In this document: positions 17,903 to 32,530 of the stretch, in pieces
Position numbering within the stretch: the stretch's first letter is position 1
Layout of the letters: every line of letters begins with the position of its first letter
DNA from: Pseudomonadota bacterium
Lineage (GTDB): Bacteria; Myxococcota_A; UBA796; GCA-2862545
Assembly: GCA_023954855.1 (NCBI GenBank)
Contig: JAGSGY010000051.1
Location: 1 to 40,168 of the forward strand
DNA: 40,168 nucleotides
Reading direction: 5' to 3'
Notes under the pieces: generated by a model
The model's input: only the letters and a program-made list of their open reading frames with translations
Told to the model about the DNA's origin: nothing
Databases searched by the model: none
Made by a program: the position numbers and the translations under genes

Positions 17903-18556
17903 TCAGTCGGAGAGGTGCAGGCGGCGTTCGAGTTCGCCTACATAAGCGGCGAGGCGAGGTGAGGGGGAGAGGCTGTGTGCGGCAGTGGCAAGATCCAGCG
18001 CCTCGGAGACATTTCCGAGCGCCTCGTGTGCGATGGCGCGGGTCTCAAGTCCGCGTGGCGACTCTGGCGAGGCGGCGGGGTAGATGCGACGGTCCACAAG
18101 TCCCGAAGGGGCGATCTGGTCGGCTACGTCGTCGATCAGCGAGCTGCGAAGTGCACCGCGGAGGGGACCCCGTCGTGACGGCATGATCTCGGCGCCATCG
18201 CCTCCGGTGCCGATCAAGCGACCGAGGGCGACCCCGTCCTGCTCGACCACGACCAGCGCTGAACTTCGGCCTTCCCAACCGCGAGAACGCCCGCCGTCCT
18301 GGTGAATGGACACTGTGGGGATCAGGCTCTCATTGCAGCCCACGACCGCAATGCGGGTCTCGGCCCTGGGGTCCACGTGAATCGTGCGGCCAAGTTGTTG
18401 GGTCAGCCGGTCCGCGATCGATCTACAGGCCGGATCCCCGGCGACGACCGCCACGGATGGGCCTTCGACATCAACGGCCGCGCGGGTTGGCACCTCAACG
18501 GTGACCGTCTTTGCGCAGCCTGCGGTGAGCAGTAGCCATGGAAGGTAGCGGACCAT
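17903..18556 (-). CDS. Hypothetical lipoprotein, 217 aa
   Basis: The product starts with a signal ending in the lipobox LTAGC (Cys14) and should be membrane-anchored outside the cytoplasm. The middle part has alternating strands and helices (VDVEGPSVAVVAGDPACRSI, then TRIAVVGCNES), which looks like a small alpha/beta domain. The C-terminal 60 residues are helical and TPR-like (LETRAIAHEALGNVSEALDLA). No family is recognised. It lies 17 bases upstream of the WalJ-like gene on the same strand and is divergent from the phosphofructokinase operon. Confidence 0.72.
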   Translation of the reverse strand: MVRYLPWLLLTAGCAKTVTVEVPTRAAVDVEGPSVAVVAGDPACRSIADRLTQQLGRTIHVDPRAETRIAVVGCNESLIPTVSIHQDGGRSRGWEGRSSALVVVEQDGVALGRLIGTGGDGAEIMPSRRGPLRGALRSSLIDDVADQIAPSGLVDRRIYPAASPESPRGLETRAIAHEALGNVSEALDLATAAHSLSPSPRLAAYVGELERRLHLSD

Positions 18557-18627
18557 GTCCTAAGGTATCTGCTGAATCTCCCGATGAAAAGCTGGCCGCG
18601 ATAGGGTGGCGTGCTGGAGGTGCCTGG

Positions 18628-19716
18628 ATGACGCGACGCGTCGGCATTCTTACCGGTGGCGGAGACGCCCCTGGTCTCAACGCGGTGATCCGCGCATTCG
18701 TCAAGCGCGGGGCGGGACAGCTCGGTTGGGAAGTTCTTGGACTCGAAGACTCGTTCGACGGGCTGCTCGATACCCCCCGTCGTGTCGTCGAACTCTCCCC
18801 GCGAAGCTGCCAGGGGCTGCTTCATCGCGGCGGCACGATTCTCGGCACCACCAATCGCGGCGACCCATTCGATTTCCCTGGTCCAGACGGGATCAGCGAT
18901 CGCGGTCAGGACCTGCTCGCAGCGGTGAAAGGGGAGCGCCTCGAGGGCCTTGTGGTCATCGGTGGTGACGGCTCACAGGCGATTGGTCTGCGCGTGATGG
19001 AGGAACTTGGAATCCCGGTGGTGGGTGTGCCGAAGACCATCGACAACGATCTCTCTGCCACCGACCAGACCTTTGGGTTTCAGTCCGCGGTCGACGTCGC
19101 GACCGACGCTCTGGATCGCCTGCACACCACCGCCGAGTCGCATGACCGAGTGATGTTCCTCGAGGTCATGGGGCGCGACGCGGGCCACATCGCTCTGCAC
19201 GCAGGGATTGCGGGTGGCGCCGACGTCATTCTCTTGCCGGAGTTTCCCTACGATCCCGAGCGGGTGGCGGCGAAGATCCGACGGCGCAAATCACTCGGTC
19301 GGCCGTTCTCGCTGGTGGTGGTTGCCGAGGGTGCGCTTCCTGTTCAGCCGGATGGCTCGGCGGTTCCGCATGACCAAGTCAAGGCCCGTCTCAAGCGAGG
19401 GCGCGGGGCGGCCGCCATCGCGATGGCGCAGCTCGAGGGCCGCATTGAAGCCGACATGCGCGTAACCGTGCTCGGCCACATTCAGCGGGGTGGCAGTCCC
19501 GTCGCCGTCGACCGAATTCTCGCGACCCGCTTTGGCTGTGCAGCCGTCGACCTGATTCAAGCGGGTCGGTGGGGTGAGATGGTGCGCCTGCACAACGGCA
19601 AGGTCGATGGGGTTCCGATTCGCGAGGCCGTCGACACCTACCGCCTCGTCGACACACAGGGGGAGCTTGTGTCCGTCGCGCGTGCCGTGGGCGTCGAGTT
19701 CGGGGAGGCCCGATGA
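18628..19716 (+). CDS. pfkA: 6-phosphofructokinase, predicted ATP-dependent (group III-like)
   Basis: The 362-residue enzyme phosphorylates fructose-6-phosphate in glycolysis. Motifs are GILTGGGDAPGLN (6-18), GTTNRGDPF (73-81), GGDGS (112-116), PKTIDND (135-141), MGRDAGHIALHAG, and HIQRGGSPVAVDR. Donor choice in this family follows two positions: Gly115 here equals Gly104 of E. coli (Asp in pyrophosphate enzymes), while Lys136 replaces Gly124. Gly plus Lys is the pattern reported for actinobacterial ATP enzymes, so ATP is the likely donor. The ATG at 18628 has GGAGG seven bases upstream; the longer open frame from 18538 is rejected. The stop overlaps the folE start (ATGA). Confidence 0.93.
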   Translation: MTRRVGILTGGGDAPGLNAVIRAFVKRGAGQLGWEVLGLEDSFDGLLDTPRRVVELSPRSCQGLLHRGGTILGTTNRGDPFDFPGPDGISDRGQDLLAAVKGERLEGLVVIGGDGSQAIGLRVMEELGIPVVGVPKTIDNDLSATDQTFGFQSAVDVATDALDRLHTTAESHDRVMFLEVMGRDAGHIALHAGIAGGADVILLPEFPYDPERVAAKIRRRKSLGRPFSLVVVAEGALPVQPDGSAVPHDQVKARLKRGRGAAAIAMAQLEGRIEADMRVTVLGHIQRGGSPVAVDRILATRFGCAAVDLIQAGRWGEMVRLHNGKVDGVPIREAVDTYRLVDTQGELVSVARAVGVEFGEAR

Positions 19717-20216
19717 AGCCCGAGCAGGCCGTCGACGCGCTCATCGCCTCACTTGGCTGGGAAGACGAGGAACTGTCGAGCACGCCCGACCGGTTTGCTG
19801 GACTCCTTCGCGAGTTCACGCCGGGTGAAGTGCCGTCGGTGTCGCTGTTCGATCACGATGGGACCGACATCGTCGTGCTCGAGGACCTTCCGTTCTACTC
19901 GCTCTGCGTGCACCACCTCGTGCCCTTCTTTGGGCATGCCACGGTGGCCTACGTGCCGAGTGGCAAGGTGGCGGGACTCTCGTGCATTGCGCGGTCGTTG
20001 CGGCACTTCGCGAGGCAGCCGCAGCTTCAGGAGCGGATTGCCACCCAACTCGCCGATCGCCTTCATGACGTGCTGGGCGCCGAAGGCCTGGTCGTGCGGT
20101 TGTCGGCTCGGCAGATGTGCATGGAGATGCGAGGCGCGGAGTCGACGGGAATGGTCCACGTCACGGCGTCGAGGGGACGTGTAACGGAGGCCCTTCGCGT
20201 TGCGTCTCTCGGCTGA
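19713..20216 (+). CDS. Divergent GTP cyclohydrolase I-family protein with altered active site
   Basis: The 167-residue protein is a short type-I FolE, a family that converts GTP to dihydroneopterin triphosphate. The fold is clear: TPDRFAGLL, LCVHHLVPFFGH, HFARQPQLQERI and MCMEMRG. The zinc ligands Cys65, His68 and Cys136 are present, as are His67, Glu107, Arg94 and Arg140. Three normally fixed residues differ. The Glu of CEHH is Val66; the triphosphate-binding Lys of GLSK is Cys91; and the His before MC (His179 of E. coli) is Gln134. E. coli His179 mutants are known to stop at the formamidopyrimidine intermediate, so the product here may differ. The gene overlaps pfkA (ATGA) and is followed by the radical SAM gene. 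Confidence 0.88.
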   Translation: MKPEQAVDALIASLGWEDEELSSTPDRFAGLLREFTPGEVPSVSLFDHDGTDIVVLEDLPFYSLCVHHLVPFFGHATVAYVPSGKVAGLSCIARSLRHFARQPQLQERIATQLADRLHDVLGAEGLVVRLSARQMCMEMRGAESTGMVHVTASRGRVTEALRVASLG

Positions 20217-20229
20217 AGAGGAGGCCTCT

Positions 20230-21096
20230 GTGCAATCCGCCCGTCCGCGGCTTGAGCTGCCGTTCTTGTACCTGGATACGCTCTGGCTCCAGGTGACCGG
20301 AACAATCTGCAACATCGCCTGTCGCCACTGCTTCATTTCGTGTGGACCCAAGGTCGACAAGCACAAGATGATGTCTCGGAAGTTGTGTCGCGAGTCCATG
20401 CGCGATGCTGTCCGAAAGGGGGTTCGTGAGATCTGGTTCACCGGGGGCGAGCCGTTTCTGCACGAGCAGATCCTAGAGATCCTCGACGATGCACTTGCCC
20501 TTGCTCCGGTCGGGGTGCTCTCGAACGGCATGCTGATCACACCGGAGCTTGCTGAAGCTCTGGGTGAGCGCTTTCGGACCGCGCCCTACAACCTCGAGAT
20601 TCGCATCTCGCTGGACGGCCCAGACGAAGAGTCGAACGACCGAATTCGCGGAAACGGTGTGTTCGAGGCGACCTGTCGCGGTATTCGGAACCTCGCTAAG
20701 GCCGGAGTGGAGCTGATCGTCGCGGTCAGTGTGCTCGACGACAATGAGCCCGACCGCGAGCGCTTCATGGAGCTTCTTCGCGAGCTCGGCGTCCCCCGGC
20801 CGAGGGTGAAGTGGATTCCGGTGTTCAGGATCGGACGAGAGGCTGGGCGTCAGCGCTCCTACGAGCCGTGGGAGGTACTCGCCGCCGAAGATCTCGCCGT
20901 CGAAGATGCCGCGGTGCGTCTGATGTGTGGCACGGGTCGCACGGTGACCAGCGAGGGCGTGTTCCCGTGTCCCATCCTCATCAATGAGCCCGCCTTTCGG
21001 ATGGGCGACAGCTTGGAACAGGCTCGCGGGAGCGCTCCGGTAGACCATCCGGCGTGTTCGACCTGCTGGCAGGAGAGCTTCTCATGCTCGACCTAG
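20230..21096 (+). CDS. Radical SAM protein with C-terminal SPASM-like cysteines
   Basis: The 288-residue enzyme has the radical SAM iron-sulfur motif CNIACRHC (Cys27, 31, 34), followed by an extra Cys38, the GGEP motif in WFTGGEPFLH, and the later barrel elements LEIRISLDGP and NGVFEATCRGI. The C-terminal 60 residues hold five Cys (MCGTG, FPCP, ACSTCWQ, SC), suggesting an auxiliary cluster of SPASM or twitch type. The GTG at 20230 is preferred because GGAGG lies five bases before it. A TTG at 20200, preceded by another GGAGG, would overlap folE and add ten residues. The substrate is unknown. Position between the divergent FolE and a phosphoesterase suggests action on a GTP-derived or pterin-like molecule, or a peptide. 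Confidence 0.88.
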   Translation: MQSARPRLELPFLYLDTLWLQVTGTICNIACRHCFISCGPKVDKHKMMSRKLCRESMRDAVRKGVREIWFTGGEPFLHEQILEILDDALALAPVGVLSNGMLITPELAEALGERFRTAPYNLEIRISLDGPDEESNDRIRGNGVFEATCRGIRNLAKAGVELIVAVSVLDDNEPDRERFMELLRELGVPRPRVKWIPVFRIGREAGRQRSYEPWEVLAAEDLAVEDAAVRLMCGTGRTVTSEGVFPCPILINEPAFRMGDSLEQARGSAPVDHPACSTCWQESFSCST

Positions 21097-21884
21097 GCAG
21101 CTTCACGAAGGTGGCCCTCTTTGGAGGAACCTACAACAACTGGATCGCCCTCGAGGCCACGGTGGCTGACGCCAAGGCGCGTGGGGCACAGGCCATCGTG
21201 TTTCTCGGCGACGCCGGCGGCTTTGGGCCGCACCCCAACCGGACCGTGGAGCGACTCCGGAACTTGCCGATTCACAGCATCCAGGGGAACTACGACGATT
21301 CGGTGGGCAACAGTCTTGAGGATTGTCAGTGCGGGTATGTCGACCCTCGAGACAACCAGTTTGCGCAGATCTCGTACGACTACACACTTCAGAACACGCA
21401 TGCCGACCATCGGCGCTGGCTGAGGGCGCTCCCCACGCGTGGGCGGCTTCAAGTCGGCGACAAGAAGGTGCTGCTGTGTCACGGCTCCCCGCGTCGGGTG
21501 AACGAGTTCCTCTGGGAGAGCACCACGCCCGCGGGCTTCATCGAGCATCTCTGCAACACGGAGGACGCGGACCTGATCGCGTGTACCCACACGGGTATTC
21601 ACTGGGAGCGTCGCCTCGAGGATGGTCGTGGCGTACTGAACGTCGGCGCGATTGGTCGTCCGCCCAATGACGGTCAACGAGAGGTCTGGTACTCCATGCT
21701 CGAGTTGGATCGGGACCGGGTGCGCTCGACCTTCGTGCCCGTGTCCTACGATTGGAAGCGACTTGCCGCTGAGATGGATGCAGAGGGCCTCCCCGCCGAG
21801 TTCTCCGCGACCATTCGGACCGGTTGGTGGACGACCTGCCTCGAGATCTTACCCGGACGGGAACGGGCTCGCGGACGCTTCTGA
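21084..21884 (+). CDS. Calcineurin-fold phosphoesterase lacking the DxH motif
   Basis: The 266-residue protein aligns by eye to the YfcE-like metallophosphoesterase fold: FLGDAGGFGPHP, IQGNYDD, LLCHGSPRRVNEF, THTGIH and NVGAIGRP. The first metal motif, normally DxHGN, reads GTYNN here (residues 15-19), so the Asp and His ligands are replaced by Gly and Tyr. The remaining GD, GN, HG and HxxxH sites are kept. A Cys-rich CQCGY and a WWTTCLEILPG ending are further marks. The ATG at 21084 follows AGGAG and overlaps the end of the radical SAM gene by 13 bases. It may remove phosphate from the product of the upstream genes, or have a changed chemistry. Confidence 0.82.
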   Translation: MLDLGSFTKVALFGGTYNNWIALEATVADAKARGAQAIVFLGDAGGFGPHPNRTVERLRNLPIHSIQGNYDDSVGNSLEDCQCGYVDPRDNQFAQISYDYTLQNTHADHRRWLRALPTRGRLQVGDKKVLLCHGSPRRVNEFLWESTTPAGFIEHLCNTEDADLIACTHTGIHWERRLEDGRGVLNVGAIGRPPNDGQREVWYSMLELDRDRVRSTFVPVSYDWKRLAAEMDAEGLPAEFSATIRTGWWTTCLEILPGRERARGRF

Positions 21885-21930
21885 CAGCGACACGAGGTTC
21901 GGCTACTCTTGCTGCCTGGAGGAACTCGCG

Positions 21931-23691
<1,761 letters not shown>

Positions 23692-24485: not shown

Positions 24486-26147
24486 TTAGTAGCCGCCAGC
24501 CGTATCGCGCCAGGCGCGGTTGTTGACCACGACCAGGATGAGAACGCCTGCGACGAGGGTCACGATGCTCCAGTCCGAAGCAGCCAGTCGAGACAAGTTG
24601 TCGAGACCGGTGAAGCCGACGCCAGCGAAGTCCGAGTTCAGCGGTCCACCGACCCAGCCGAAGCTGTCGTAGAGACCGAGGATACCGAAGCCGGTGGCGA
24701 GGCCGCCGACGAGGTAGCCCATCATGTAACGGAGCTGGTTCGCCTTGCTCTGCGTGTCGTCGTGGTGCGCATGGTGGCGCAACGAGTGCACGTGGACGTC
24801 CCACGGGTGGGGGTCGAGGAAGGGGTCCGAGAGCGGCAGCGGCGGAAGCTTGGCCATGGCCGAAGCGACGACCAGGACGAACGCGCCCATGAAGCCAATC
24901 CAGACCAGGATGCCCATCGCGAAGTTGAACACCGGGAACTCGGCGCCGAAGAACACGGCGGGCATGACGAGCAGGGTGCGCTCGAGCATGACGCCCACGA
25001 GGATGAGGGAGAGCACGCCGACGAAGGGCAGGCTCATCTTCTTCACACCGCGGCCAATCAGGATGGTGAACGGCGCGAGGAAGCAGGTGACGGCCACGAG
25101 CTTCGCGAGCCACTGCCACTCGGGCAGGCTCATGCGAACCAGGAGGTAGTCGATCTCTTCCGGCATGTTCGAGTACCAGATCGGCAGGATCTGCGCGAAC
25201 GTCGTGTAGGCCCAGAACATGCAGAGCGCGAGAACGAGCTTGCCGAGGTCGTGGGTGACGATGTTGGTCACGTAGGTGCCGGTCTTCAGCCAGTTGCGCG
25301 AGGACACCGCGAGGATGCCGATCATGCAGAGGGCCGTCCAGAAGCTGGACATAAAGAACCAGCCGCCGAACATGTTCGTGTACCACCACGGCGACATGCT
25401 CATGAGCAGGTCGAAGGCCAGGAAGCTGAAGCCGAGGGCGTAGGCGAAGCCGATGACCGGCATCAGGATGCCTTGGGTCTTGAGGCCTGCCGCGGCAGCC
25501 TTCTCGACGTCGGTCTCCTTCGGCATGAAGTAGGACCACCAGCCGGGAGCGACGAAGCTCGGGTTCGACTGCTTCAGGCGCTGGCTGGCCATCAGAAGGT
25601 CGGGACCGAGGCTCGCCTTGAGGAACATCATGTCCACGACGACGAGGAACCCGAGGATGCCGACCTGACGTGCGATGAAGAAGCCGCTGCTGAGCCACAA
25701 GGGCTTGGCCGACCACGCAGCGGGGCTGTGCGGTGCGATGTCGATGGCGGCGCCCGTCTCGGTGACGATGTTGCCGTCAGCCCAAGGGTACAGGGCACCG
25801 GTTCCGAAGAACGTGGCGACGAGCCAGAGCACCATCGCGACCCAGACGATGGGCATGAACAGCGCCATGGTCTCGGCGATGCGCTTGAGCGGGCGACCCC
25901 AGCGGGCTTCGGTGCCCACCATGATCACGCCGTACATGATGCCGCCCTGTGCAAGCGCCATCGTGTAGAGAATGCCGATGAGCACCGCACCCATGCCCCA
26001 GGCCACGGCTCCGGTGCCCATGAGGGCTCCGAATCCGGCTAGGCCGGCGAGCATGGCTGCAATTGCGCCATTGCGGACGTTGCCAGGAAGCTGGCGGCCG
26101 GGCATCGCATCGATGACCGCGTCGAGTGAAAGACGACCCGCGCTCAT
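24486..26147 (-). CDS. actF: Alternative Complex III subunit ActF (NrfD-like membrane subunit)
   Basis: The 553-residue polytopic membrane protein is the last gene of the act operon and has the quinol-oxidising NrfD/ActF character. It has about ten or more membrane segments, with blocks such as QVGILGFLVVVDMMFLKASLG split by short loops, SWFFMSSFWTAL-like Trp/Phe-rich helices, and NIVTHDLGKLVLALCMFWAY. ActF works with ActC to take electrons from quinol in the inner membrane. The protein is somewhat long because of a C-terminal extra helix pair. Its ATG overlaps the actE stop (ATGA at 26144-26147). Confidence 0.92.
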   Translation of the reverse strand: MSAGRLSLDAVIDAMPGRQLPGNVRNGAIAAMLAGLAGFGALMGTGAVAWGMGAVLIGILYTMALAQGGIMYGVIMVGTEARWGRPLKRIAETMALFMPIVWVAMVLWLVATFFGTGALYPWADGNIVTETGAAIDIAPHSPAAWSAKPLWLSSGFFIARQVGILGFLVVVDMMFLKASLGPDLLMASQRLKQSNPSFVAPGWWSYFMPKETDVEKAAAAGLKTQGILMPVIGFAYALGFSFLAFDLLMSMSPWWYTNMFGGWFFMSSFWTALCMIGILAVSSRNWLKTGTYVTNIVTHDLGKLVLALCMFWAYTTFAQILPIWYSNMPEEIDYLLVRMSLPEWQWLAKLVAVTCFLAPFTILIGRGVKKMSLPFVGVLSLILVGVMLERTLLVMPAVFFGAEFPVFNFAMGILVWIGFMGAFVLVVASAMAKLPPLPLSDPFLDPHPWDVHVHSLRHHAHHDDTQSKANQLRYMMGYLVGGLATGFGILGLYDSFGWVGGPLNSDFAGVGFTGLDNLSRLAASDWSIVTLVAGVLILVVVNNRAWRDTAGGY

Positions 26148-26710
26148 TCCGTCTCCTCAACCGGCGCTGGGGGAGTGTACTTCCCGTCAGGCTGGCTTCG
26201 CAGGTAGTGGACCAGGGACCACATTTCGTCGTCCGTCATGGCCCATCCGTAGTAGGGCATCACTGCGCCGCCATTGCGGACAGTGAGGTAGATGAAGCCG
26301 TCGGTGCGCTTGGCGACCTGGCCGTTAGGTCCGAGCAGCGGAAGCACGCCTGGGAACCGGCCGGGCTGTCCGACGGGGCCAGGGTTGATGCCATCGGCGC
26401 CGTGGCACGGGGTGCAGTACACCTCGTACATGCGCTGTCCGTTGGCGAGCACAGCCTCGTCGGCTGCGAACGGTGCGGTCAGCGCCATGCCCTCGGGGCT
26501 GGTGCGCTCGTAGTTCGGGGTCCAGGAACGCGGCGTGAGCACGTGTTCCTGACTGACGACGCCCTCTGGAAGGGGGGCGGCCTCACGCTCGTAGGCCTTC
26601 ACGGCCTGCGAGTCGGCCATGTCGATGTCCCAGGGCAGACCAAAGGTCACCGTGGAGAAGGCGAGTACGCCGACAACGACTGCGCCGGCTTGGTACAGCT
26701 GCCTACGCAT
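26144..26710 (-). CDS. actE: Alternative Complex III subunit ActE (mono-heme cytochrome c)
   Basis: The 188-residue protein has an N-terminal membrane anchor (about 7-24) and one heme c motif, CTPCH, at residues 99-103. A later Met-containing segment (AVMPYYGWAM) could supply the distal ligand. The PWDIDMADSQAVK stretch after the anchor is typical of ActE. It carries electrons from the iron-sulfur/heme part of the complex toward the periplasmic acceptor. It overlaps actD by eight bases and actF by four, so synthesis is tightly linked. Confidence 0.93.
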   Translation of the reverse strand: MRRQLYQAGAVVVGVLAFSTVTFGLPWDIDMADSQAVKAYEREAAPLPEGVVSQEHVLTPRSWTPNYERTSPEGMALTAPFAADEAVLANGQRMYEVYCTPCHGADGINPGPVGQPGRFPGVLPLLGPNGQVAKRTDGFIYLTVRNGGAVMPYYGWAMTDDEMWSLVHYLRSQPDGKYTPPAPVEETE

Positions 26711-27257
26711 TGGGCACCTCGTAGATGGCGTCGGCTCCGTGAGTGACCTCGACGGCGCCAGAACCCTTCAGGAGCTCTTCGATGCGCTCGCGCTGTGACG
26801 CGGGGGCACCAATGAAGCTGATGGTGAACTTGTCGTCGACCACCCGGGGATCCTGGAGGATCTTCGGAAGGCCCAGGCTCGGGAGCCCGGTGTGCACAAT
26901 CATGCCCGCGAAGGTCGCGAGACCGCCGATGAGGATGGTGCACTCGAACATGATGACGGCGAAGGTCGGCAGCGACACGACCGGCTTTCCGCCGGGGTTG
27001 ATCATCGGCCACTGTGCGTGCGTCAGAGACGGCAGCAGGAAGCCGACGGTCAGTCCGGTGACTGCGCCGATGAGCGTCCACCAGCGAACTGGGGACGGCC
27101 GTCCTTCATAGATGGCCTCTTCAATCTCGTGGCGGGGGAGCGGCGCCTGCACGGTCCAGCCGGTAATTCCGGCGGACTTCAGGTCGTCGATGCCCGTCAG
27201 GAGGCAGTCGAGGTGGGCGTAGACGCCCTTGATCTGCGTTCCGCTAGCTGTAGACAT
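26703..27257 (-). CDS. actD: Alternative Complex III subunit ActD (DUF3341)
   Basis: The 184-residue protein shows the DUF3341 layout: a soluble N-terminal part with GVYAHLDCLLTGIDDLKSAGI, two membrane helices (TLIGAVTGLTVGFLLPSL and FAVIMFECTILIGGLATFAGM), and a soluble C-terminal region with DDKFTISF. ActD is a structural membrane subunit without cofactors. The ATG at 27257 starts one base after the actC stop. The longer open frame from 27398 lies inside actC and is rejected. Confidence 0.93.
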   Translation of the reverse strand: MSTASGTQIKGVYAHLDCLLTGIDDLKSAGITGWTVQAPLPRHEIEEAIYEGRPSPVRWWTLIGAVTGLTVGFLLPSLTHAQWPMINPGGKPVVSLPTFAVIMFECTILIGGLATFAGMIVHTGLPSLGLPKILQDPRVVDDKFTISFIGAPASQRERIEELLKGSGAVEVTHGADAIYEVPNA

Positions 27258-27258
27258 C

Positions 27259-28605
27259 TCAGCCCTCCAGGGAGCCCTTGACAGGCGGCTCGACCATTTC
27301 CTTGATTTCGGTAATGGCGACGCCCGGCAGGGTCTTGGCGAAGAGAAGGAACCAGAAGGAGAACCAGCCCGCGGAGCCGAGCAGGATGCCCCACTCAACG
27401 ACGGTCGGCCAGTAGAGGTCCCAGGTGGACGGGTCGAAGCTGCGGCTGGTGGACGAGGCGACGATGTTGAGGCGCTCGAACCACATGCCGATGTTCACGA
27501 AGATGCTGACGACGAACAGAATCACGTGATTCTGGCGCCAGGCCTTCTTGTACCAGACCAGCGGAATGATGCAGTTGCAGACGACCATGGTCGCGAAAAT
27601 CCACCACTGCTCACCGACGGTGCGCCAGTAGAAGATGTACTGCTCGTACGGGTTCTGGCTGTACCAGGCGATGAAGTACTCCATGAAGTAGGAGTAGGTC
27701 AGGATGCCGCTCGTGAGCAGACACATCTTCGCCAGGCTCTCGTAGTGCCAGGTGTTGACGTAGTCGTGCCACTTGAAGAGGTACGACATCGGCATGAGCA
27801 GCGTGATGACCATCGCGCAGCCACTGAAGATGGCGCCGGCGACGAAGTAGGGCGGGAACAGCGTGGAGTGCCAGCCTGCGGTGTTCGACATCGCGAAGTC
27901 CCAGGAGACGACGCTGTGAACCGAGAGGACCAGCGGGGCGGCGAATGCGGCGAAGAAGCCGTATGCCGCCATGTAGCTGTGCCACTGCTTGTTCGTTCCG
28001 CGCCAGCCGAGGGCGAGGATGTTGTAGATGCGCTTGACGAGGCCCGTGCTGTGGTCGCGAACGATGGCCATGTCAGGGACAAGACCGACGTAGAAGAACA
28101 CGCTCGAGATCGTGAAGTACGTCGAGATGGCGAACACGTCCCACATGAGCGGGGACTTGAAGTTCATCCAGAGCTCGCGCTGGTTCGGGTAGGGGAAGAA
28201 CCAGTACATCTGCCAGACGCGGCCAAGGTGCAGCGCCGGGAAGAGCAGGGCGGTCATGACGGCGAAGATGGTCATCGCCTCCGACGCCCGGTACACGCCC
28301 GTCCGCCACCTGGAGCGAACCAGGTAGAGAATCGCGGAAATCAGCGTTCCGGCGTGGCCGATGCCGACCCAGAACACGAAGGTCACGATGTACACACCCC
28401 AGAAGGTGGGGTGCTTGATGCCTGCAACGCCCATGCCCCAGGTGATCTGCAGGTACCAGCAGTACCCGCCGTACACCATGGCTGCGGTGGCCAGCACAAA
28501 GGCTGCCACCCACATGACCGTCGGAGTCAGCAGAGGGCGAATGATGTCGCGGTTAGCGGCAGCGTAGGTCGCTGGCCGGTTGGCCTCACGGTACTTGTCG
28601 TCCAC
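27259..28605 (-). CDS. actC: Alternative Complex III subunit ActC (NrfD-like quinol site subunit)
   Basis: The 448-residue membrane protein belongs to the NrfD/PsrC family with about ten helices. Recognisable blocks are ITWGMGVAGIKHPTFWGVYI, WVGIGHAGTLISAILYLVR, and FALSVHSVVSWDFA-like sequence after the middle. ActC holds a quinol-binding site next to ActB and, with ActF, may form a proton path. The GTG at 28605 is chosen: AGGAGG lies seven bases upstream and overlaps the end of actB. It starts 12 bases after the actB stop. Confidence 0.94.
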   Translation of the reverse strand: MDDKYREANRPATYAAANRDIIRPLLTPTVMWVAAFVLATAAMVYGGYCWYLQITWGMGVAGIKHPTFWGVYIVTFVFWVGIGHAGTLISAILYLVRSRWRTGVYRASEAMTIFAVMTALLFPALHLGRVWQMYWFFPYPNQRELWMNFKSPLMWDVFAISTYFTISSVFFYVGLVPDMAIVRDHSTGLVKRIYNILALGWRGTNKQWHSYMAAYGFFAAFAAPLVLSVHSVVSWDFAMSNTAGWHSTLFPPYFVAGAIFSGCAMVITLLMPMSYLFKWHDYVNTWHYESLAKMCLLTSGILTYSYFMEYFIAWYSQNPYEQYIFYWRTVGEQWWIFATMVVCNCIIPLVWYKKAWRQNHVILFVVSIFVNIGMWFERLNIVASSTSRSFDPSTWDLYWPTVVEWGILLGSAGWFSFWFLLFAKTLPGVAITEIKEMVEPPVKGSLEG

Positions 28606-28616
28606 GGTGGCCCCTC

Positions 28617-31600
28617 CTAGTGCGCCGCGTCGTGCGCGGGCTCTTCATGGTGGGCACCTTCGGCTTCGGGGGCGTGCGCGGCGTCGCCGTGCTCGTCTCC
28701 GTGGGCCTCGGGCTCGTGATGCTCGCCGCTATCGGCGCCATGGTGACTATCCTGGGGATGGAAGGTCGCCTTGGCGAGGTAGTGGACAGCGGAGAAGGTG
28801 TTCAGCTCGGCAAAGACCTGGTAGGCACGTCCGCTCTTAGCGAGCTTGGTGACTCCGGACTCGGCGTCGATGAGGTTGCCAAAGGTGATGGCGTCGGTCG
28901 GGCAGGCTTCGGCACACGCGGTCACGTGTGTGAGGGCCTCCTCGGGGACGACTTCCACTCCCTGATCCCGGTATGCGCTCTTGGTGTTCCGCAGGCGCTG
29001 GACGCAGAAGGTGCACTTCTCCATCACGCCCATGGTCCGAGCCATGACATCGGGGTTGAGCTGGAGGTTGAAGGGCTCCGGCCAAACGTACGAGTGGTAG
29101 TTGAAGCGACGCACGATGTACGGGCAGTTGTTCGCGCAGTAGCGCGTACCCACACAGCGGTTGTAGATCATCGCGTTGAGGCCATCGATGGTGTGGTAGG
29201 TCGCGAGGACCGGGCACACCGACTCGCAGGGCGCGTGAGCACACTGCTGGCACATCATCGGGAGGAAGCGGGTCTCGACCGGGCCGGAGCCATCGGTGTA
29301 GCCCCAGTAGCGGTTGACGCGAATCCAGCCCATCTCGCGACCGTCGCGAACCTTCGCCTTACCGACAACCGGGAGGTTGTTTTCGGCGTAGCAGGCAACA
29401 GCGCAAGCACCGCAGCCCGTACAGGCGTTGATGTCGACGCTCATGCCCCAGCGGTACGTGGGGTGGTCGGGGATGTCGTAGAAGTCGACGGCACCGCGCT
29501 CGGCAAGACGGGGGTCAAGGCCGAGGTGGTGAATGCCCGTGAGCTCACCGGGGTGGTGGCTCTCGGAGTCGCCGACCTTGGCCAGTGCCTCGTGATCGGT
29601 CACCGGCGCCATCTGGCGGTGGTGGTCCGTGTCCGAGCCGACCGTGGTCACGAGGTCAGCCGTGCCAACCTTCTTGAAGGCGACCTTGGCCTGCTGCCAG
29701 GCAATCGCGCCGAAGCCGTCGACCTTGGCGGAGAGCAGGCTCACCACGTTCGCGCCGACGTTGTTAGCGTAGCGACCGTTGGCGATGTGACCCTGACCGA
29801 AGGCGATGGCAAAGGTATCCTTGCGAGTGCCCTGGTAGAAGTCGACGCCGACCTTGATCGAGCCCGCCGCGGTGGTGAGCTCCAAGAGGTCGTTGCGGGC
29901 AATACCAAGGCGCTTGGCCGTGTCGGGATGCACACACACCCAGCTGTCCCATACCTGGCCAGTCATCGGGTCAGGCGTTTCCTGGGCCCATGGCTGGTTG
30001 GCAAAGCGGCCGTCCTTGCGGAACGGGTGCGGGTAGGCGTGGAGGAAGTATTCTCCAGCGCCCTCGATAGCCGCGGCGCCGGCGATGACCGGAGCACCAG
30101 GAGACACCTGGGCGCCTCCGATGGAGGTCTCGGTGGCGACGAAGCCGTCGGCGAGACGCTCCTGGAACCAGAGGTCGAAGGAAGCACCCTTGCCGCTGCT
30201 GTGCTGCCAGGTGGCCTTGACGTAGTCGCGGTAGGTTGCGGGCGTGAAGCCGACCGGGCCGAGCGCTGCGGGAGCGTCGCCCTCGGTGCCTTCAGTTCCC
30301 TCGGCGCCTTCGACGTTCCAGGCGAGGCCGTCGACCTGAATCGCGGCGCCGTCCGAGCCCTCGGTTCCTTCGGTGCCAGCAGTCGCGGCGGCAACCGGTG
30401 CGACGGGCTGAAGCCCTGCGTCCCGGGCGGCTGCGAGCAGTACGTCGCCGAGGGACAGTGCATCGTAGAGCGGCGACTGTGCCGGCTGGCGGAGCAGACG
30501 CAAGCCACTGTGCAGTTCTTCGTCGCCCCAGTCCTCAAAGACGTCGGCAACGGGAAGCACGAGGTTGGCCAGTGCGGTGGTCTCGTCCGGCTGCGAGTTG
30601 AAGCTCGCGACGAACGGGACCTTGCCGAGCGCTTCGGCGAAGCCGCTGTCGGCGGGCAGGGCGTAGGCGGGGTTGGTGTCTCCGAGGAGGACCGCACCCA
30701 CTTCGCCGTTGTTCATCGCGTCGACCAGGCTCTTCACATCGCCGTAGGATGCGATGGCGCCCTCGTAGGCTCGGCCGAGACCGAAGGTCTTGCCGGCCAT
30801 GCCGCTGACGACGTTGATGAGGAAGGTGGCCATGGCCAGCTCGGTGGCTGCCGTGGAAGCACCCGCCGCGCCGCCGGGAAGAACGACCGAGTCACGCGCT
30901 GCAATCTGTGCGGCGATGGCGTCGATATCACCGGCGTCGAGACCGCTTGCGGCTGCTGCGCTTGCCGGGTCACCGGCAGCGACCAATCGGGTCGCGGGGC
31001 CGGTGTAGCCCTTCTTGGCAGCGACCAGCTTGGCGATGGCTAGGGCGACCTGCGCTGCCGTTCCGGGCTTGCAGCCATACCAGTCGTCGGCGTTGACGCC
31101 AGACTGGTCCTGGTAGGGGCTGACGAGCGCGAAGCGCGCGACGAAGCCGCCGTCGTTCGGGTTCTTGGCCGAGGCGTACTGGTTCGACAGCTCCCATCCG
31201 CCCCAGCCCGACAAGAAGTCGGCGCCGAAGCTGACGATGTACTTGGCCTTCGAGAGGTCGTAGGCCGGAAGCACGCGGCGTCCGAAGACCTTCTCGGCGG
31301 CGAGGGCGTCTGCCTCGTAGCCAAGCGGCTCCCAGTGAAGCGCGTTGTCTGCGGTCACGTCCTTGAGCAGGTTCGCGAGCGAGCCAGAGGCGTAGGGGCC
31401 GAGCCAAGCGATCTTCTTTCCGCCAGCGCGAGCGGCCTTGAGGCCCTCGACCAGCTGTCCGCGGGCCGCGTCCCACTCAAGCTCGGCGCCGTCTTTAGAG
31501 ACGGGCTTCGCGTAGCGGTCGGGCGAGAAGTGACGCTGCAGCTCGAAGAGCGCGTCGGTCGGCACGATGCTCGCCATCGGCGAACGCGTGTTTGCGCCGA

Positions 31601-31844
31601 CGTTGACGACGCGGCCGTCGCGGTGCCGTGCAAGCACGGTGTGCGCGTTCGGGCCAGTGCCGAGCGTGGTTGCGAAGAACGTAGGCGTTCCGGGGGTGAC
31701 CTGCTCCGGCTTCACGACGTACGGCAGAACCTGCTCGATCGGCGTGTAGTACCGGTTGTCATCCATGCGGCACGCGGACATCACGGAAGCGCCCGAGCCA
31801 ATGCCCAGAGCCTTCAGGAAGTCACGACGGTTGAGTCCAGCCAT
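28617..31844 (-). CDS. actB: Alternative Complex III subunit ActB (molybdopterin-like/iron-sulfur fusion)
   Basis: The 1075-residue protein joins a molybdopterin-oxidoreductase-like domain that normally has lost its cofactor (about 30-770) to an iron-sulfur domain (about 795-1000). The latter has four Cys groups (CTGCGACAVAC, CQQCAHAPCESVC, CVGTRYCANNC, CTFC with CAEAC). A twin-arginine signal is visible at the start (NRRDFLKALG, residues 5-14). It lies on the periplasmic side and links quinol oxidation to the heme subunits. Residues about 486-521 carry TEG-rich repeats that look like an extra loop. A His/Glu/Ala-rich tail ends the protein. The ATG at 31844 follows GAGG; an ATG at 31856 overlaps actA but has no ribosome site. 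Confidence 0.95.
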   Translation of the reverse strand: MAGLNRRDFLKALGIGSGASVMSACRMDDNRYYTPIEQVLPYVVKPEQVTPGTPTFFATTLGTGPNAHTVLARHRDGRVVNVGANTRSPMASIVPTDALFELQRHFSPDRYAKPVSKDGAELEWDAARGQLVEGLKAARAGGKKIAWLGPYASGSLANLLKDVTADNALHWEPLGYEADALAAEKVFGRRVLPAYDLSKAKYIVSFGADFLSGWGGWELSNQYASAKNPNDGGFVARFALVSPYQDQSGVNADDWYGCKPGTAAQVALAIAKLVAAKKGYTGPATRLVAAGDPASAAAASGLDAGDIDAIAAQIAARDSVVLPGGAAGASTAATELAMATFLINVVSGMAGKTFGLGRAYEGAIASYGDVKSLVDAMNNGEVGAVLLGDTNPAYALPADSGFAEALGKVPFVASFNSQPDETTALANLVLPVADVFEDWGDEELHSGLRLLRQPAQSPLYDALSLGDVLLAAARDAGLQPVAPVAAATAGTEGTEGSDGAAIQVDGLAWNVEGAEGTEGTEGDAPAALGPVGFTPATYRDYVKATWQHSSGKGASFDLWFQERLADGFVATETSIGGAQVSPGAPVIAGAAAIEGAGEYFLHAYPHPFRKDGRFANQPWAQETPDPMTGQVWDSWVCVHPDTAKRLGIARNDLLELTTAAGSIKVGVDFYQGTRKDTFAIAFGQGHIANGRYANNVGANVVSLLSAKVDGFGAIAWQQAKVAFKKVGTADLVTTVGSDTDHHRQMAPVTDHEALAKVGDSESHHPGELTGIHHLGLDPRLAERGAVDFYDIPDHPTYRWGMSVDINACTGCGACAVACYAENNLPVVGKAKVRDGREMGWIRVNRYWGYTDGSGPVETRFLPMMCQQCAHAPCESVCPVLATYHTIDGLNAMIYNRCVGTRYCANNCPYIVRRFNYHSYVWPEPFNLQLNPDVMARTMGVMEKCTFCVQRLRNTKSAYRDQGVEVVPEEALTHVTACAEACPTDAITFGNLIDAESGVTKLAKSGRAYQVFAELNTFSAVHYLAKATFHPQDSHHGADSGEHHEPEAHGDEHGDAAHAPEAEGAHHEEPAHDAAH

Positions 31845-31852
31845 TGTGGGCC

Positions 31853-32530
31853 TCATTTGTGGCAGGTCCAGCAATCCTTCAGCTCTGCACGCCGAAGGTC
31901 TGCCTTCTCACCGTAGTTCTCGTTGACCGAAGGATGGGTCTCATGACAGCCGAGGCACCAACCCATCTGCAGGGTGGTCTCCCGAATCATGGTTCCCTCG
32001 ACCACGCCATCTTCGTTCCGGACGCCGCTGAGCAGGGGAACCTGCCCATGGCACTCGGTGCAGTCGACGCCCGCGCGCACATGGCGCTTGTGCTCGAAGT
32101 GCACGTAGTCCGGAAGGTCGTGAACCTTGTTCCACGGAATGGCTTCGCCCTTCTCGTAGTACTCGGCCACACGCTTGATTTCCGGAGAGTCCGTCTTCAC
32201 GTACTTGTGGCAGTTCATGCACGTCTGCGTGGGAGGCACGCCGGCGTGAAGAGACTTCCGCGCCTCGGAATGGCAGAACTCACACTCCATCCCCAGCGTC
32301 TGCACGTGGGTGTTGTGTGGGAACGCGATGGGCTGTTCAGGGCCCTCGCCGGTGGTAGCACCGGCCGCGATCTGTCCATTCTCCGAGGTGTACTCGGGGA
32401 AGAGTTGATGGGGAGCGCGAGGATGATTTTCATCACCCGCGTATTCGTCTGCTGGCGGGCAACCGCCGATGAAGGCGGAGAGCAGAAGCAGCATGGCTGC
32501 TTGGCTGGTGGTCCGCACTTGATGCCGCAT
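31853..32530 (-). CDS. actA: Alternative Complex III subunit ActA (pentaheme cytochrome c lipoprotein)
   Basis: The 225-residue protein has five heme c motifs: CEFCH (83-87), CMNCH (104-108), CTECH (157-161), CLGCH (192-196) and CWTCH (220-224). Several extra His residues can act as distal ligands. The signal ends in the lipobox IGGC (Cys24), so it is a lipid-anchored periplasmic electron carrier. It is the first gene of the actABCDEF operon, which replaces cytochrome bc1 in passing electrons from quinol to cytochrome c or directly to an oxidase. The ATG at 32530 directly follows GGAGGGCCC, which is part of a hairpin. Confidence 0.95.
   Translation of the reverse strand: MRHQVRTTSQAAMLLLLSAFIGGCPPADEYAGDENHPRAPHQLFPEYTSENGQIAAGATTGEGPEQPIAFPHNTHVQTLGMECEFCHSEARKSLHAGVPPTQTCMNCHKYVKTDSPEIKRVAEYYEKGEAIPWNKVHDLPDYVHFEHKRHVRAGVDCTECHGQVPLLSGVRNEDGVVEGTMIRETTLQMGWCLGCHETHPSVNENYGEKADLRRAELKDCWTCHK

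Follow-up and report, generated by a model that had tools for sequence, protein, structure and literature searches.

A FolE variant clade with a partly altered active site in uncultured Myxococcota and other phyla

Introduction

FolE (GTP cyclohydrolase I) is a textbook enzyme, and genome annotation proceeds on the assumption that the residues of its active site do not vary. The window analysed here, a stretch of 40,168 nucleotides, encodes a FolE-like protein in which three of these residues are replaced, and it raises the question of what such a protein makes. The original prediction was that it may stop at a ring-opened formamide, as ArfA-like enzymes do, and not produce dihydroneopterin triphosphate (DHNTP).

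The roles of the residues are known from T. thermophilus FolE: in its numbering, Lys134, Arg137, Arg183 and Arg64 contact the phosphates, Ser133 binds the ribose hydroxyls and Glu150 the guanine, while His177 protonates N7 and His110 serves ribose opening (PMC4005822). In E. coli FolE, replacement of His179 is reported to abolish activity (PMC4005822), and His179 mutants are reported to form the ring-opened formamide intermediate (Bracher 1999, as cited in PMC7750480). We use E. coli numbering (Ec) below, and FolE-X as a working name for the FolE subfamily without Glu111 and Lys136.

Sequence and predicted fold of the FolE-like protein

The gene and its three altered codons lie on the plus strand, directly behind a 6-phosphofructokinase gene:

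18538..19716, plus strand: 6-phosphofructokinase gene, overlapping the start of the FolE-like gene by 4 bases (ATGA)
19713..20216, plus strand: FolE-like gene (GTP cyclohydrolase I family), 167 aa, member of the FolE-X clade (PF01227, alignment, tree and AF2 model)
19908..19910, plus strand: codon GTG, Val66 at the Ec Glu111 position (CVHH), by alignment
19983..19985, plus strand: codon TGC, Cys91 in place of Ec Lys136, which contacts phosphate in canonical FolE (alignment; role of the lysine from PMC4005822)
20112..20114, plus strand: codon CAG, Gln134 at the Ec His179 position (alignment; role of the histidine from PMC4005822)

The protein scores 144.3 bits against Pfam PF01227 (cut-off 27) over residues 4-158, and this is the only Pfam family that it matches; FolE2 (GCYH-IB, PF02649), the alternative GTP cyclohydrolase I of many of the same genomes, is a different Pfam family. 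It misses every NCBIfam cut-off for FolE (TIGR00063, 124.6 against 181.6; NF006826, 144.7 against 162). A weak match to TIGR03139, the model of the T-fold nitrile reductase QueF, reaches E 8.5e-4 and 19.2 bits against a cut-off of 86.9. The AF2 model, built on a 28-row alignment, has a pLDDT of 97 and a pTM of 0.90; its top PDB match is the GTP cyclohydrolase I 1wm9 (TM 0.91), pointing to a T-fold. Since the active site of FolE is formed between subunits, the pocket is not visible in this monomer model.

We aligned the protein with solved FolEs and with E. coli FolE, whose residue numbering was checked. The alignment bears out all three changes, Val66, Cys91 and Gln134, together with the retained zinc ligands C65, H68 and C136 (Ec C110, H113 and C181). 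Also kept are the catalytic H67 (Ec H112), Q106/E107 (Ec Q151/E152) and the equivalents of Ec R65, R139 and R185: among the phosphate contacts K136 is replaced by Cys91 and all three arginines stay, while the place of the catalytic His179 is taken by Gln134.

Likeness to FolE thus covers the predicted fold and these retained residues; the differences are the absence of E111, K136 and H179, the NCBIfam scores, and a subfamily that stands beside canonical FolE in five genomes. Judged by its sequence, the protein is a member of a distinct FolE variant subfamily, whose function is assigned by inference only.

A clade without Glu111 and Lys136

Relatives were collected by a family-level search, a scan of genome contigs and then a class-level search. 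Family-level orthologues read C[VA]HH, have Gln in the place of His179 and replace Lys136 by a small residue. In a tree of 114 rows, made by a quick method with the trait columns left out, 55 distinct relatives without E111 and K136 form one clade (SH-aLRT 99), hosted by uncultured Myxococcota, Acidobacteriota (Blastocatellia) and Eisenbacteria. The changed positions belong to the active site, and the changes are conserved across a clade. We found no description of such a FolE clade in the open-access literature searched; FolE-X is a widespread and seemingly undescribed offshoot of FolE. Two of the MAG records that carry it, CAMAXZ010000007.1 (L030) and CAMBIK010000170.1 (L041), are titled Klebsiella pneumoniae; the species title of the former looks wrong.

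Within the clade, K136 is absent from all 55 members, E111 is lost as well, and S135, the ribose contact, is mostly lost; the equivalents of R65, R139 and R185 are mostly retained. In 34 sequences with Gln at 179 (Q-type), the zinc ligands, H112, Q151 and E152 are kept in 100%, K136 is absent and S135 has become Gly in 82%. Seven near-neighbour pairs give dN/dS values of 0.06-0.36, indicating purifying selection. Because the substitutions recur in relatives they are not sequencing errors, and recurrence in 55 relatives together with purifying selection also excludes random decay. Compensating charges at R178/E183 were considered and dropped, since the search pattern itself accounts in part for their conservation.

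The tree rows fall into grades, one of them canonical FolE. Seventeen rows have lost E111 and kept K136 and H179; fifteen have lost E111 and K136 and kept H179; and of the 41 rows in 114 with Gln at position 179, 40 have lost both E111 and K136, making Gln the commonest state of the FolE-X clade (40/55). Here the original prediction went too far in counting Ec E111 among normally fixed positions: these seventeen, otherwise intact FolEs from Acidobacteriota, Gemmatimonadota, Latescibacterota and others, have A, S or L there. As the sequences read, what defines the clade is that Glu111 and Lys136 have gone, in most members together with Ser135, after which His179 is free to become Gln. His and Gln do interchange at 179 within the clade, with seven changes on the best tree, of which at least two are forced by starred branches.

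A histidine displaced to a neighbouring position was set beforehand as grounds for refuting the formamide prediction; the alignment of relatives shows no invariant His around Ec position 179 that could stand in for it.

A second FolE group (L156-L159, from G021, G056, G052 and G053) has CPHH, lacks Lys136 and carries Pro (or Gln) where His179 would stand. It is apparently an independent loss, separate from FolE-X.

Folate and GTP cyclohydrolase genes in the host genomes

With 6.1 Mb at 97% completeness, the window genome contains FolB, FolK and GTP cyclohydrolase II, and the FolE-like gene encodes the sole PF01227 protein found there; neither FolE2 (PF02649) nor PTPS/QueD was found in it. A queuosine role for FolE-X in this genome was set aside, as no QueD/PTPS was found there. 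The same constellation recurs in the 99% complete genome G003: FolE-X as the sole FolE-type protein found, alongside FolB and FolK and with no FolE2 found.

These two genomes speak for the most probable alternative: FolE-X would be a working GTP cyclohydrolase I making DHNTP for folate, with Gln134 or another residue in place of His179 and the arginines sufficing for the phosphates. Retention of the zinc and guanine sites, of H112 and of the arginines suits it as well, and such a role is possible in the window genome, which has FolB and FolK but where the search for a further FolE or a FolE2 came up empty. We nevertheless consider it rather improbable, given the reported loss of activity in E. 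coli His179 replacements cited above and two further observations. Five members of the window's own family (G001, G002, G005, G012 and G013) have FolB and FolK, yet no FolE and no FolE2 turned up in them, a hole in the folate pathway from which it follows that the family may have another source of DHNTP. Elsewhere, FolE-X coexists with canonical FolE.

We sampled 50 genomes of the class, each at least 85% complete. FolE-X occurs in 34 of them: 5 also have canonical FolE, 22 have FolE2 and 7 have neither. Another 12 genomes lack any PF01227 protein, 6 of them with FolE2 and 6 with neither. A second GCYH-I is thus wanting no more often in genomes with FolE-X (7/34) than in those without PF01227 (6/12; Fisher p 0.07, a value that ignores kinship). 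These counts argue against FolE-X as a simple substitute for GCYH-I, although gene absences are provisional because some genomes are incomplete. FolE2 beside a genuine FolE is a known pattern, that of a zinc-independent backup.

In the sister families f5 and f6, canonical FolE accompanies FolE-X in 5/5 sampled FolE-X genomes, so FolE-X is a paralogue there. The part of the original prediction that denied DHNTP as the product fares unevenly: it is plausible that FolE-X is not simply a DHNTP synthase in these five genomes, where it looks like a paralogue with a job of its own, and it is less secure in the window genome, which has FolB and FolK and no other FolE or FolE2.

GTP cyclohydrolase II (PF00925) is present in 50/50 genomes. 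All but one have at least two matches, and in the window's family the second is very divergent (G000:C64 and G000:C128; about 74-98 bits, compared with 105-153 in most others). Archaeal ArfA and bacterial RibA are ring-opening GTP cyclohydrolases from families unrelated to FolE, and any ring-opened product of FolE-X would resemble that of ArfA. With GTP cyclohydrolase II in every sampled genome, an ArfA-like riboflavin role is unlikely, and FolE-X as a replacement for RibA was rejected on the same count.

Genomic neighbourhood of FolE-X

The order of 6-phosphofructokinase followed by FolE-X is also found in G014, G003 and G009. On the other side of the gene the window has two further genes:

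20230..21096, plus strand: radical SAM protein with a C-terminal Cys cluster (SPASM/twitch-like), GTG start; first gene of a module
21084..21884, plus strand: calcineurin-like metallophosphoesterase in which the DxH motif and the last His of GHTH are missing; second gene of the module

Downstream of the 55 distinct FolE-X loci lie an ABC permease (20), a TrxR-like flavoprotein (11), the radical SAM and phosphoesterase pair (5) or none of these (19, some of them on short contigs). The permease loci, mostly of families f2 and f4, often have an ATPase too, and several have an NMT1/THI5-like binding protein. Directly 3' of FolE-X, the TrxR-like flavoprotein stands at L044-L047, L049, L055, L056, L059, L060, L084 and L095; in the copies read (L044, L045, L046 and L049) the CxxC cysteines are missing. 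Riboswitches at Rfam gathering scores were found in none of 22 sources, and no formamidase was recognised beside FolE-X.

Importantly for the proposed product, sequences with His and with Gln at 179 sit in the same operons: the ABC importer accompanies 4 H- and 16 Q-types, the FAD oxidoreductase 3 H- and 8 Q-types. Since the two residues interchange in the clade with the same gene neighbours, Gln at 179 alone is probably not reaction-defining, and the idea that a formamide product follows from H179Q as such finds no support. We accordingly find it doubtful that loss of His179 makes the enzyme halt at the ring-opened formamide (2-amino-5-formylamino-6-ribosylamino-pyrimidinone triphosphate) for use by a separate enzyme. 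The substitution is real and the majority state of the clade, and the E. coli mutants described in Bracher 1999, as cited above, are altered at the same position; FolE-X, however, is a natural clade also changed at 111, 135 and 136, with both H and Q at 179. The lack of a recognised neighbouring formamidase counts against this halt too, as does GTP cyclohydrolase II, whose presence leaves no riboflavin gap to fill. A formamide is one of several possible outcomes, and His179 by itself is too narrow a basis for assigning it.

Very unlikely, finally, is a salvage enzyme acting on an imported small heterocycle (a formamidopyrimidine or purine) in place of GTP: the eroded phosphate and ribose contacts and the permease 3' of FolE-X in 20/55 loci would fit, as would the NMT1/THI5-like protein, for which the search returned a single solved relative, the formylaminopyrimidine-binding protein 3ix1, but that match is weak (E 1e-4), the NMT1 family binds many ligands, and the window has no importer, only the 6-phosphofructokinase and radical SAM/phosphoesterase genes adjoining.

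The phosphoesterase occurs in 39/377 genomes of the phylum. It retains the GD, GN, HGS and first-His ligands, with [FL]GG.Y.N replacing the DxH motif, a pattern consistent with what we take to be one metal site. In 20 loci fetched around its other homologues, the radical SAM gene adjoins in 20/20 and FolE in 0/20; the pair is thus an independent two-gene module, and a fixed three-gene pathway with FolE-X is weakened by the same counts. Beyond the window, the module is represented by L225-L243, L211 and L192, and it is conserved across the phylum.

Two other features of the region were noted. A predicted protein 3' of the phosphoesterase has a long Asp-Thr repeat tract, (DT)n, at about 21900-22300 on the plus strand, with similar tracts in relatives. 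At 24486-31874 on the minus strand, two NrfD-like membrane proteins, a cytochrome c and a molybdopterin/4Fe-4S protein resemble an alternative complex III cluster.

Proposed activity of FolE-X

We propose, and give an even chance to, a zinc hydrolase that acts on a guanine-type base with altered or absent handling of the ribose-triphosphate, or with incomplete late steps, and whose product is not DHNTP. Among the Q-type sequences, the half of the site that serves zinc and guanine does not vary, which makes catalysis on a guanine-like ring likely, and the pattern of replaced residues suggests that ribose-phosphate handling or the late steps are likely changed. A zinc-activated water would attack C8 of the base and open the imidazole ring. 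The ribose-triphosphate of the substrate might be held differently or be absent; otherwise, the Amadori rearrangement and ring closure might not be completed. Either way, the product would be a formamido- or diaminopyrimidine. Gln at 179 would then be one tolerated state of a site whose positions 111 and 136 had already changed, and not the switch.

Three points count against the zinc hydrolase. With R65, R139 and R185 mostly retained, the triphosphate may still bind. In addition, a sole PF01227 protein alongside FolB and FolK, with FolE2 not found in the window genome, would be simply explained by a true DHNTP synthase. Finally, coexistence with FolE2 would also suit a genuine FolE that has FolE2 as its backup.

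A bolder extension, which we regard as unlikely, is that FolE-X is a new activity on the FolE scaffold, in which zinc-driven attack on a guanine-type ring goes with changed handling of the ribose-phosphate. It would start or feed a pathway of pterin or pyrimidine type, so far undescribed, in uncultured Myxococcota and in other phyla. Its partners would differ from clade to clade: an importer of the NMT1 type, a TrxR-like flavoprotein that lacks CxxC, or a radical SAM protein with a mono-metal phosphoesterase.

Implications for FolE annotation and folate reconstruction

Across several phyla, the FolE-X clade has kept the half of the FolE site that binds zinc and recognises the base, and has dropped part of the half that serves phosphate, ribose and proton transfer. 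Database entries that call its members normal GTP cyclohydrolase I may therefore misstate the product. If FolE-X does not make DHNTP, folate reconstructions for the host genomes are wrong, and some lineages, those where FolB and FolK are encoded but neither FolE nor FolE2 turned up, must obtain it in another way. Should FolE-X make DHNTP after all, the accepted view that His179 and Lys136 are required would have to be revised.
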